Positions 6,178 to 9,538 of a DNA stretch of 64,000 nucleotides are shown here, in pieces (the first letter of the stretch is position 1; each line of letters opens with the position of its first letter). The stretch covers positions 1-64,000 of the forward strand of contig JAQGHU010000048.1 in the NCBI GenBank assembly GCA_028291515.1. The letters are read 5' to 3'. Position numbers and translations under genes: made by a program. The notes beneath the pieces are model-generated. The model was given only the letters and a program-made list of their open reading frames with translations, had not been told where the DNA came from and ran no database searches. Source of the DNA: Schlesneria sp. GTDB taxonomy: Bacteria; Planctomycetota; Planctomycetia; Planctomycetales; Planctomycetaceae.

Positions 6178-6606
6178 ATGAATCGTATGAGACTTGAATC
6201 CGGTGTTCGGACGGGCGTGGTTGTATTCGCCGCGGTTGTGGGATTATTTGCATCAACTCCGAATGTACATGGAATCGCCGACACGCGCGGGGGGGCTCCC
6301 TGCGATGTCAATAAGACGATTGACAGTACATGCGGTGATGCCACCTACCAAAGTGCGTGCCTGTACACTTACACCCGATGCTATGCCGTGCCCGGCTGGC
6401 GATTTATGACCTGCACGTTGAAGTCAATGTCGAGTAACGGTTGTGCACGATCTCCGCGTTGTTTCCCACGAGATGACTGGTCAACCACGGGTGCCTGCAG
6501 CCCCAATTACTCAGATAGCAGCACGAATCCACCCGGGTACACGGGAAATACGTCCCCCTCAGCAGCTGTCGGCGGAGCGCAAGTTCGGGCCTCTCAGGTT
6601 CGTTAG
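6178..6606 (+). CDS. small secreted cysteine-rich protein
   Basis: I do not recognise the family. The 142-aa product starts at ATG 6178 (ATG 6187 is possible) with a signal peptide (residues about 1-32, hydrophobic core VRTGVVVFAAVVGLFAS). The mature part contains eight cysteines, an even number that suggests four disulfides, and a Ser/Thr/Pro-rich tail without cysteine. Just after the predicted signal lies IADTRGGAPCDV, in which a Gly-Gly precedes Ala. The next three genes on the strand encode a secreted anchored protein, a C39-peptidase/rhodanese fusion and a MauE-like redox membrane protein. It is therefore a candidate substrate of that machinery, by context only. Confidence 0.65.
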   Translation: MNRMRLESGVRTGVVVFAAVVGLFASTPNVHGIADTRGGAPCDVNKTIDSTCGDATYQSACLYTYTRCYAVPGWRFMTCTLKSMSSNGCARSPRCFPRDDWSTTGACSPNYSDSSTNPPGYTGNTSPSAAVGGAQVRASQVR

Positions 6607-6655
6607 GCTACCTCGTCGAGTGCCAGAAGTCCCTAAATTAGAAGAGCTTTCGTCC

Positions 6656-7861
6656 ATGAGTGGCGGAAGCTTTTTGCTTTTCTTGGTGGGTCAAGTGCCA
6701 AGGATCTCTGCCTTGAAAATCGTATCACTTTGGATCGCTTCTTTGGTCTTCCTGGCGGGTTTCGCACAGGCTGACGATGGGGTGACTCTTGAGCAAATCT
6801 TAGCACGCCATCAGGCAACGTTGGACCGACTGCGACGATGTCAGATGACATCATTTGAGCGATGCGCCACCACGCGTGCGGATGGTGCGGTCCAATCCAT
6901 GGAAACAACCCGCCAGACCAGTCTTCGCCTCGATGGCGACCGCGTTAACCTGATGGTACTCGAGACCGCTTTGGATGCCGATGTCGCGAATCAGCATTCC
7001 AATGAGTTTTGTTATCTTCGGGACGGACACGTTCTACGCATCTATTTTCCGCACGAACAGTTCAATAAGCGTCCGCTCTCGGCATCAGCCGTGAACGGGA
7101 GGCTGGCCCCCGAAGCCGACGACGAACATTTTGTGGAGTCTGTTTTGGGCGGTGCCTCGATCGCCTTCGGAGTCACCAACTTTCCAAATATCGCCCCTCT
7201 CGCGAAACTGCTGAGGTCCGGCAGCGACACTCGAGTGACAAAGGATGACATTGGATACTGTGTCGAAGGAGCTTCGAAGGATGGCACCCGTCATCGAGTC
7301 TGGTTTGATCCCGATGCCAGCTTTGTGGTCAAACGACTGCTGTTGGAGCAATCCGGTGCGACGCTGAACGACAACCGCTTTCAATACAATCGAAGGGTTC
7401 TGACGTCACTTTACGGCTTCAGCGATAAATCCGTCGTCAACAACGTGACCTTCGAGGCGCGAAGGACGAAGATCGCGCCGTGGAAGGATTCTCACGTCAT
7501 CACGGCGCTGGAAACGGTCAAAACAATCTCGACCGTCGACGGTGCCAAAGCGATGGAAAACACGTCATACACTTTCACGGATTGGAATCTGGAACCTGAT
7601 TTTTCAGATCCATCATCATTCCGGCCCATGATTCCCGTCCCTGAAAAGGTGCGGGTTTCCGTCGAAGACAGACCTTCACTGGAGTATGAGTATGTGAATG
7701 GGGAAATCAAACTGGCGGTGAATGAGAAGACTATTGAGGACCTGAAAGATACTCCCTTGGCACCTCGTCGGCCTGCCCAATCGCAAATGCAATGGATCTG
7801 GGGCGTCGTGACCACGATCCTGGGAATGGTCTGGTGGAGGATTCGAACGAATTCCGGCTGA
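6656..7861 (+). CDS. secreted protein with C-terminal membrane anchor, unknown function
   Basis: A 401-aa product if started at ATG 6656. TTG 6713-ish would leave the tidy signal peptide KIVSLWIASLVFLAGFAQA, so the exact start is open; the long upstream open frame is out-of-frame overlap with the previous gene and is ignored. After the signal come EQILARHQATLDRLRRCQM and a series of amphipathic strands, a pattern reminiscent of LolA/LolB-like or DUF2092-type secreted beta proteins of planctomycetes. A transmembrane helix near the C-terminus (QWIWGVVTTILGMVWW) is followed by a short positive tail. No catalytic motif is seen. It sits between the Cys-rich gene and the C39/rhodanese gene. Confidence 0.6.
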   Translation: MSGGSFLLFLVGQVPRISALKIVSLWIASLVFLAGFAQADDGVTLEQILARHQATLDRLRRCQMTSFERCATTRADGAVQSMETTRQTSLRLDGDRVNLMVLETALDADVANQHSNEFCYLRDGHVLRIYFPHEQFNKRPLSASAVNGRLAPEADDEHFVESVLGGASIAFGVTNFPNIAPLAKLLRSGSDTRVTKDDIGYCVEGASKDGTRHRVWFDPDASFVVKRLLLEQSGATLNDNRFQYNRRVLTSLYGFSDKSVVNNVTFEARRTKIAPWKDSHVITALETVKTISTVDGAKAMENTSYTFTDWNLEPDFSDPSSFRPMIPVPEKVRVSVEDRPSLEYEYVNGEIKLAVNEKTIEDLKDTPLAPRRPAQSQMQWIWGVVTTILGMVWWRIRTNSG

Positions 7862-7916
7862 ACGTTCCTGGAGTCATCTCGAGAATCAATTGGTGTTCAT
7901 TCTCACGGAAAGCTGT

Positions 7917-9053
7917 ATGACTTCGCGTTTATTAAGTGTTTGTGTCGCCGTGTTGATGTCGGCGGCGATGGGGTCGGTCACTGCTGCCGAGTTACAACAG
8001 GAAGCCGCCAGTGACATCCCCGATGTCGGTCGCGAGAGTACGACCTATTGCGGGATTTATTGCGCTTACGCGGCGATGAATGGGTTTGGGAAGCATATCG
8101 ACTTCACCAGTCTGCTGGAGACGAAGTATGTCGGGACAATGTACGGGAGCTCCATTCAAGAATTGGAGAAGGCCGTCACCGACAATGGACTGCACGCGTT
8201 ACCGATGATGGGATTGTCTCGAGCGAACTTGATCTCGGCAACGACACCGATCGTGCTCCACGTGAGTCGGCCCGAGGCCCCCGGTTACTTCGGGCACTGG
8301 GTCCTGTTCCTGGGGATAGAAGACGGGAAGGCCAAGATCCTGGATGTCCCCCACCGCACCGAACTGGTTCCTGTGGCCGATGTCCTGGCGCGTTGGGATG
8401 GTGTTGGTCTTTATATTTCTGAGAAGCCGATCTCTCCCTGGCAACTGAAAGTGGAATCGGTGTTGACCGGCGAAAACGTCGCCGTCTTCGCGGGGTTGCT
8501 GGTCCTGATGGCGATCTTGCAGCGTCTCTCCACCCGTCGTCGAAATGGCAGCGTAGTTCCGCGACGGACTTGGGTGATAGCTCCGTCGCTGCTGGTTCTG
8601 GCAGGTTTATTGGCGGTCTCGTGGCACTTCTTGTCTCACGACGGATACGCTCGAAATAAGGTGGCTCTCCGAACCGTGATCCAGCAGCACCTGCCGTCAT
8701 TCCTGCCGAAGCTCGGCGTCGCCGAGATGCAGAAAGCGATGCAAGACGGCAAGGTCGTGATTATCGATGCTCGATATCCTCGCGACTATGAAGCCGGCCA
8801 TCTTCCCGGTGCCATCAACGTCCCGGTCTTCACCACGCAGGCCGAACGACGACGTTTGCTGGAAGCTGTTCCTCGAGATGCGAAAATCGTGGTGTACTGC
8901 CAAAGCGATAGCTGTCAGTTCGATGAAGCACTTGGCTCGGCCCTGGTCGCCGAGGGGATTGAAAACGTATCGCTGTTCCCGGGTGGCTGGACGCAGTGGG
9001 ATCAGAAAGATTCCGGTTCGGTCAAACCCGTCAAAGAAGAGGTTGATGAATGA
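7917..9053 (+). CDS. membrane-anchored C39-type peptidase fused to a rhodanese domain
   Basis: A 378-aa protein with a signal peptide (1-25, ending VTA), a C39-like papain-fold domain with Cys45 (TTYCGIYCAYAAMNG), His127 (FGHWVLFLGIEDG) and Asp143 (ILDVPH), two hydrophobic segments (about 185-202 and 218-238), and a C-terminal rhodanese domain (about 260-370) with Cys328 in VVYCQSDSCQF. The usual oxyanion Gln of C39 peptidases six residues before the Cys is replaced by Arg/Glu, so activity is uncertain. Frames open at TTG 7890 and GTG 7893, but ATG 7917 gives a proper signal peptide. The stop overlaps the next start (ATGA), showing translational coupling with the MauE-like gene. The orientation of the domains across the membrane is not settled. 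Confidence 0.82.
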   Translation: MTSRLLSVCVAVLMSAAMGSVTAAELQQEAASDIPDVGRESTTYCGIYCAYAAMNGFGKHIDFTSLLETKYVGTMYGSSIQELEKAVTDNGLHALPMMGLSRANLISATTPIVLHVSRPEAPGYFGHWVLFLGIEDGKAKILDVPHRTELVPVADVLARWDGVGLYISEKPISPWQLKVESVLTGENVAVFAGLLVLMAILQRLSTRRRNGSVVPRRTWVIAPSLLVLAGLLAVSWHFLSHDGYARNKVALRTVIQQHLPSFLPKLGVAEMQKAMQDGKVVIIDARYPRDYEAGHLPGAINVPVFTTQAERRRLLEAVPRDAKIVVYCQSDSCQFDEALGSALVAEGIENVSLFPGGWTQWDQKDSGSVKPVKEEVDE

Positions 9054-9538
9054 GCGAAGTGGCGACAAGCAGCAGCGCCGAGTCTCGCTGGAATCGATTT
9101 ATTCGCGAATTCGACTGGGTTGCCCGACTGATCGTCGGCGGGATCTTTGTCTGGAGTGGCTCGGCCCATCTGGCGAACCCTTACTATTTCCTGTCGACGG
9201 TCTATCAATATGAATTGACCACCGCCCCCGTGGGAGCGTTGGTCGCTTCATACATGCCATTTCTTGAATTAGTACTTGCGGCCTGTTTGCTGAGTAGCTG
9301 TTGCCAACGCGCCGCCTGGACGGTGACATCGTTGCTGCTGCTCGGATTCGTCGCGGTTCAGGGCTCGGCATTGTCTCGTGGATTAAAGATCAGTTGCGGT
9401 TGCTTTGGCCCCGAAATCAACAGGCCGATCGACGCCACTTCGATCTCTTACACGGCCACACTGGCCGTCCTGGCAATTTGTGCGACCTTAGCGGTGCGTT
9501 ACATTCCTCCGGCCAAACCTGCCGTTACGGGGGTCTGA
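9050..9538 (+). CDS. MauE/DoxX-type redox-associated membrane protein
   Basis: A 162-aa integral membrane protein with about four helices. It begins VARLIVGGIFVWSGSAHL, typical of the MauE/DoxX group, and carries the conserved CGCFG motif (Cys116, Cys118) at the end of the third helix. MauE is needed for maturation and disulfide formation of the methylamine dehydrogenase small subunit, and relatives are generally linked to periplasmic thiol chemistry. Overlapping the C39/rhodanese gene by 4 nt, it is almost certainly co-translated. No mau structural genes are here, so the substrate must differ; the Cys-rich protein at 6178 is the obvious candidate (inference). Confidence 0.85.
   Translation: MSEVATSSSAESRWNRFIREFDWVARLIVGGIFVWSGSAHLANPYYFLSTVYQYELTTAPVGALVASYMPFLELVLAACLLSSCCQRAAWTVTSLLLLGFVAVQGSALSRGLKISCGCFGPEINRPIDATSISYTATLAVLAICATLAVRYIPPAKPAVTGV

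Follow-up and report, generated by a model that had tools for sequence, protein, structure and literature searches.

The 64,000 nucleotide stretch of Schlesneria sp. DNA analysed here (contig JAQGHU010000048.1, positions 1 to 64,000; hereafter the window) encodes five genes arranged head to tail on the forward strand. The first is a DUF1559 prepilin-like gene (5151 bp–6014 bp), which matched PF07596 (E 2e-54), PF07963 (E 6e-7) and TIGR04294 and whose product has an N-methylation motif and a C-terminus of the form H-X9-DG. It is followed by a gene (6178 bp–6606 bp) encoding the precursor of a hexacysteine peptide, a protein of 142 amino acids made up of a signal peptide, a short pro-region with a Gly-Gly end and a mature part holding all eight cysteines. 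The third gene (6656 bp–7861 bp) encodes an exported protein with a C-terminal hydrophobic membrane anchor, which we have designated A3 and which was followed in other genomes with an iterated profile. The fourth (7917 bp–9053 bp) encodes a fusion of a C39 peptidase domain, two hydrophobic segments and a rhodanese domain, and the fifth (9050 bp–9538 bp), which overlaps the fourth by 4 nucleotides, a MauE-family membrane protein with the sequence CGCFG (PF07291, 77 bits, E 2e-21). Signal peptides and anchors were called by hydrophobicity alone. An earlier note on this DNA had proposed that the last four genes form a maturation module for the Cys-rich protein; its description of the four same-strand genes, the 4 nucleotide overlap and the positions of Cys45, His127, Asp143, Cys328 and CGCFG proved exact.

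The C39 domain of the fusion protein (residues 41–170; 8037 bp–8426 bp, forward strand) contains Cys45, His127 and Asp143 and matched PF03412 with 29.5 bits (E 7e-7) against a curated cut-off of 22. The rhodanese domain (residues 269–363; 8721 bp–9005 bp, forward strand), which carries the loop C328-Q-S-x-x-C333, matched PF00581 with 69.6 bits (E 3e-19). These were the only domains matched in the protein, and no ATP-binding cassette (ABC) transporter domain was among the matches. The C39 profile (A5) aligned along its length with the peptidase domain of ComA (3k8u; E 1.6e-10). As the two hydrophobic segments have a short basic loop between them, both domains are predicted to lie outside the inner membrane. 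Comparison with the nearest relative (G142) gave ratios of nonsynonymous to synonymous substitution rates (dN/dS) of 0.11 for the peptide, 0.11 for A3, 0.085 for residues 41–378 of the C39-rhodanese protein and 0.034 for MauE, and all four genes are under purifying selection in this comparison. Structure predictions, each made from two near-identical sequences, were too poor for use, with a predicted local distance difference test score (pLDDT) of 39.3 for the C39-rhodanese protein and 35.6 for A3.

Among 170 genomes of the family to which the window belongs, 15 gave a match to the C39-rhodanese protein. Its profile was matched in 32 of the 397 genomes sampled from the class, 17 of these 32 lying outside the family. 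The 32 include one genome (G538) in which the match spans the C39 part only, and the class and phylum samples also include members of the window's family. A total of 33 module loci were read, of which 16 belong to the family and 17 do not; L021/L022 and L121/L122 each represent one genome split across contigs. A MauE profile match was present in 30 of the 33 loci; in the split-contig loci L022 and L121, MauE lies on the counterparts L021 and L122, and L120 has neither MauE nor rhodanese. A3 was found in 32 loci, the exception (L107) lying on a contig that ends too early. A small Sec-exported Cys-rich peptide was encoded in 29 of the 31 assessable loci, the contigs of L033 and L107 ending too early for this count. 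In 27 of the 31, the 2.7 kb preceding the module contained a secreted Cys-rich open reading frame (ORF) on the same strand; two of these were spurious by eye and also lacked a match to the peptide profile, leaving 25. As controls, the opposite strand had such an ORF in 2 of 31 loci, and other DNA had four in 394,636 strand-bases. In four further loci (L025, L026, L031 and L111) the peptide was encoded downstream of the module, with two copies in L025 and three in L026.

For a second set of 20 loci, it was predicted in advance of reading them that each would encode MauE and A3 together with a Cys-rich secreted ORF containing GG or G[GA]. MauE was matched in 18 of these and A3 in 15, and a strict GG rule returned the peptide in seven; in L106 and L113 the GG caught by this rule is not that of the aligned motif, and in L111 the rule returned two unrelated matches. 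Most of the other peptides of the set, which carry GA or GS, were recovered by a motif-free rule. The module recurs beyond chance, since the arrangement is found repeatedly across the class. Peptide, A3, C39-rhodanese and MauE genes occur together in other genera and families, which bears out the conserved neighbourhood that the earlier note had expected outside this genome. Because the sequences in the peptide (A8) and A3 (A4) alignments were collected by gene neighbourhood from loci that share ancestry, the samples tested are not independent.

Within the genus, the module was found in 3 of 15 genomes. In the window it is flanked by obg and the 9623 homologue, and in a sister genome (G136) these two genes adjoin each other across a gap of approximately 180 bases with none of the five genes between them, showing the module to be present or absent as a unit. 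The other module-less genomes of the genus were uninformative, with flanks on different contigs or far apart, or with obg not found. In G139 the module adjoins the 9623 homologue and obg is on another contig. This genome also carries a degenerate second copy of the module (L137, 5373 bp–7738 bp), in which A3 and MauE are present and the centres of the C39 and rhodanese domains are missing.

An alignment of 32 peptides from 29 loci (A8) revealed six cysteines and one glycine to be invariant at a mean column identity of 18%, and the peptides look like one undescribed family. The invariant glycine (Gly38 in the window) precedes the six core cysteines and is followed by Gly in 19 peptides, Ala in 12 and Ser in one. 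In the window, the Gly38-Gly39 codons (6289 bp–6294 bp, forward strand) mark the cleavage site that we predict for the C39 domain on the strength of this alignment. They lie in RGGAPCD (residues 37–43 of the 6178 product), a site that had already been singled out in the earlier note and whose GG is kept as G[GAS] in all 32 sequences. The motif [VILFM]xG[GAS] occurred ahead of the first core cysteine in 26 of the 32 peptides, compared with a mean of 8.4 and a maximum of 18 in 2000 shuffles; position −4 was hydrophobic in 26 of the 32 and Val in 19. Cysteine counts after the motif were even in 29 of the 32, and as six cysteines are fixed, the fairer figure is 13 of the 16 peptides with extra cysteines.

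The window peptide had no Pfam or NCBIfam match. Across the 32 members, NCBIfam gave none and Pfam one weak Zn_clus match (E 0.0047, one member), and the peptide profile matched nothing in the PDB. A search of the class with this profile gave strong matches in 23 of the 32 genomes in which the C39 profile had matched, as expected by construction, and in 0 of the other 365, using an insensitive first pass from which at most 11 or 27 candidates were scored per genome. Module peptides overlooked by the first pass were those of G644 and G650 and those of G024, G031 and G623, although the profile itself matched the ORFs of the latter three. The divergence of the peptide, its tandem copies and its patchy distribution suggest an accessory secreted factor, such as an inhibitor, a signal or a surface component. 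Identity with bacterial defensins was rejected, as the cysteine spacing is unlike the defensin pattern. Planctomycetes are not mentioned in a paper on such defensins (PMC11561630). On another contig of G580 (L163), the profile found two tandem peptide ORFs that are not part of the alignment (6615 bp–7139 bp and 7226 bp–7651 bp); the ORF that follows them resembles the A3 start of L117 by eye and is not a profile match. Additionally, the C-terminus of the window peptide (6178 bp–6606 bp) carries two copies of (A)SQVR or AQVR, and that of a near-identical relative (L022, 1567 bp–2025 bp) carries four, which suggests a length-variable repeat of 15 bases.

Cys45 and His127 were present in all 28 fusion proteins compared, with D at residue 143 in 24, N in two and E in two, and the C39 domain would cut the peptide at G[GAS]. 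The V-x-G-[GAS] motif could instead be a signal peptidase I site, with Val at −3 and Gly at −1, and the C39 domain could act in binding or acyl transfer with no peptidase activity; V-x-G fits the −3/−1 rule. However, the motif lies a median of 14 residues past the hydrophobic core, and more than 7 residues past it in 31 of 32 peptides, whereas the usual signal peptidase site lies nearer the core, and another A-x-A-like site (loose pattern) was found upstream of the motif in 29 of 32. Inactive C39-like domains do exist, HlyB being an example in the part of PMC8277102 that concerns these domains. The same part gives an oxyanion-hole Gln as a C39 feature, and the Gln six residues before the C39 cysteine was present in only one of the 28 fusion proteins and missing from 27, while a Gln anywhere between −8 and −1 was found in eight. 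The role of this Gln is disputed, according to the section of PMC6363468 that treats it. Against the signal peptidase explanation, the catalytic Cys and His are nevertheless retained in 28 of 28 proteins, and the residue after the invariant glycine is G, A or S in every one of the 32 peptides, as in C39 leaders. We consider this explanation unlikely and retain cleavage by the C39 domain.

Both Cys328 and Cys333 were conserved in the 28 fusion proteins, forming a C-x4-C loop, and of the 30 loci in which MauE was matched, 29 carry its CGC motif. No thioredoxin-type motif was found by one regular expression in the called ORFs within 4 kb of the modules, and for this reason the rhodanese, with its invariant cysteine pair, is the likely partner of MauE. 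Four loci with rhodanese-only matches in the family and phylum were examined. Three (L087, L088 and L089) encode single rhodaneses, and on the fourth, a short contig from outside the class (L090), a rhodanese adjoins MauE with no C39, an arrangement that favours a functional pairing of rhodanese with MauE. L086 (G144) encodes a C39 that is not accompanied by a rhodanese.

Two other assignments of the redox proteins were considered. The rhodanese could move sulfur, so that the peptide would be persulfidated, as the earlier note had already raised, or a polysulfide or metal site built, with MauE recycling the thiol. The Pfam rhodanese fold and the active-site cysteine in 28 of 28 proteins agree with this, but the second cysteine of the loop, equally invariant, is as expected for a dithiol pair, and even cysteine numbers in 13 of the 16 peptides with extra cysteines speak for disulfides. 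MauE is moreover speculated to aid disulfide formation in methylamine dehydrogenase in the passage of PMC7794033 that introduces it. Sulfur transfer therefore seems improbable to us. Still less probable is a DsbD-like reducing branch, in which MauE and rhodanese would keep the C39 cysteine or the precursor reduced until cleavage. The C39 nucleophile would be a cysteine in an oxidising compartment, tethered to a redox domain, which fits such a role; L120, however, keeps C39 and peptide with neither rhodanese nor MauE. Disulfide formation by the rhodanese in partnership with MauE is thus the chemistry that we prefer.

DUF1559 genes lay within 3 kb of the module on the same strand in 18 of the 33 loci and exclusively on the opposite strand in five. 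Approximately three loci would be expected from the 120 matches in this 8.59 Mb genome, an expectation that uses the rate of the window's genome only. MauE and DUF1559 form one open frame in five loci (L107, L116, L117, L118 and L119), which strengthens the DUF1559 link suggested in the earlier note, and DUF1559 is a frequent, not universal, member of the module. These open frames, and the 23 of 33 loci with a DUF1559 gene no more than 3 kb away, would also suit a DUF1559 pseudopilin as the true client, with the Cys-rich peptide a minor part of its assembly. The peptide (29 of 31 loci) is more constant than DUF1559, though, and it is the peptide on which the C39-type leader sits; additionally, the G139 module has no DUF1559 in the 17 kb examined. 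We regard a DUF1559 client as very unlikely and continue with the peptide as the client.

No significant match to A3 was found in Pfam, NCBIfam or the PDB, profile searches against Pfam and the PDB included. It was present in all 15 family genomes with the fusion, largely by construction as these copies are in the profile, and in 7 of the 155 without it (170 genomes). A3 and C39-rhodanese form one open frame in L113, as do A3 and part of the C39 in L035. A3 is possibly a chaperone or receptor. There are also hints of a sensor or ligand-binding domain, because in two loci (L133, 7103 bp–9109 bp; L134, 1228 bp–3363 bp) an A3-like domain lies at the C-terminus of an extracytoplasmic function (ECF) sigma-like protein with a membrane segment, the sigma part having been named by eye.

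Taken together, these genes probably form a module devoted to maturing a secreted, disulfide-rich peptide, following a Sec-dependent double-glycine pathway with no ABC exporter; we hold this with some reserve. The precursor would leave the cytoplasm through Sec and lose its signal to signal peptidase, after which, on the outer side of the inner membrane, the membrane-anchored C39 would cut behind the [V/I/L]-x-G-[G/A/S] motif of the pro-region. MauE would hand oxidising equivalents to Cys328/Cys333 of the tethered rhodanese, which would form the disulfides of the peptide, at least three in number. Anchored A3 might hold the precursor or the product, and the DUF1559 pseudopilin may carry the peptide onward or present it. 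The interpretation of the earlier note is supported in its outline, the cleavage, the oxidation and the choice of disulfide over persulfide being what we infer. A more far-reaching version, in which hypervariable hexacysteine peptides exported by Sec are cut by C39, oxidised by its own rhodanese domain relaying for MauE and delivered through a DUF1559 pseudopilus along an ABC-exporter-free route, is offered tentatively, as we would sooner doubt than assert it. If true, this version would assign both a client and a function to a branch of the DUF1559 family, which is large and unexplained.

Several observations weigh against this interpretation in addition to the missing Gln of the C39 domains. 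The window peptide itself has the motif T-R-G-G, with no hydrophobic residue at −4. According to the account of LahT in PMC6363468, C39 motifs are GG, GA and GS and the leader contacts are Val-4, Leu-7 and Leu-12; as only 13 of the 32 peptides have a hydrophobic residue at −7 and only 12 have one at −12, leader recognition would not be identical to that of known C39 leaders. Three of the 32 peptides have an odd number of cysteines, and the MauE of L113 has CGS instead of CGC. No recognisable peptide was found in L083 and L118 among the 31 loci with readable flanks, and no DUF1559 within 3 kb in 10 of the 33 loci. A3 also occurs outside the context of the fusion, including the ECF sigma-like proteins mentioned above. 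The retention of C39 and peptide in L120, where rhodanese and MauE are absent, indicates that the C39 and rhodanese halves are separable. Finally, L084 and L085 (both G499, of the same phylum and outside the class) gave no A3 or peptide match though they were in the pre-set locus set; they encode a C39-like part that lacks the catalytic cysteine and is joined to a rhodanese, followed by MauE, and they are not among the 33 module loci.

No published description of the module was found in the open-access literature. The module shares with the C39 domains of PCAT/AMS exporters (ComA, LahT and PCAT1) the C39 fold, the catalytic Cys/His/Asp, G-[G/A/S] leaders and Val at −4, but its C39 would be exported by Sec, tethered outside the membrane and fused to a rhodanese with no ABC transporter, and 27 of the 28 fusion proteins lack the Gln. 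MauE/MauD of methylamine dehydrogenase maturation resembles it in that a MauE-family membrane protein is thought to help a secreted Cys-rich partner. MauD, however, is thioredoxin-like, whereas the module has a rhodanese in its place and a client family with no Pfam or NCBIfam relative.

The portion of PMC5557850 (2017) devoted to FapD of the Pseudomonas Fap amyloid system describes it as a periplasmic C39 protease that is exported by Sec, with secretion blocked in the C38A mutant; a C39 that leaves through Sec can thus be active as a protease in the periplasm. FapD is likewise encoded beside its presumed client; in that portion no rhodanese or MauE partner is named and the amyloid-system client has no canonical C39 leader, whereas the leader motif of the module is conserved. 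The same portion describes periplasmic C39 peptidases as yet uncharacterised and the target of FapD as unclear, and the module supplies a conserved candidate substrate and site alongside a predicted periplasmic C39 enzyme. According to citations in PMC4138195 and PMC5403849, disulfide formation in E. coli could be restored by PspE, a periplasmic rhodanese, showing that a rhodanese in the periplasm can make disulfides. The module rhodanese is predicted to share this feature, but in contrast to PspE, which has one cysteine, it has an invariant cysteine pair and is tethered to C39. The candidate clusters for ribosomally synthesised and post-translationally modified peptides (RiPPs) that decRiPPter found with MauE in Streptomyces also place MauE beside small predicted precursors (PMC7794033); they are actinobacterial, and C39 is not mentioned in the part of that paper describing them, a distinction made by description and not by sequence. 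The module points to a rhodanese co-opted for disulfide catalysis and to a new family of secreted Cys-rich peptides, and it offers a lead on the function of DUF1559, of which there are 68 paralogues in Planctopirus limnophila according to the passage on this family in PMC10632474.

A Pfam tally was made of 99 module neighbours, in which the commonest 25 of 136 families were listed. A PMT-type glycosyltransferase is encoded downstream of the module in 8 of the 33 loci (L024, L030, L032, L034, L035, L108, L111 and L118), and in L024 (6030 bp–7277 bp) MauE shares an open frame with a family 2 glycosyltransferase. PADLOC returned no match for four module proteins, hence no link to known defence systems was drawn. 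Two more secreted Cys-rich ORFs are present on the reverse strand of the window, one with 22 cysteines (14,618 bp–14,980 bp) and one with 11 (15,047 bp–15,475 bp). A Pfam search of both gave no match. The cysteine spacing of the former is metallothionein-like, and both ORFs are kept in the sister genome (L021).

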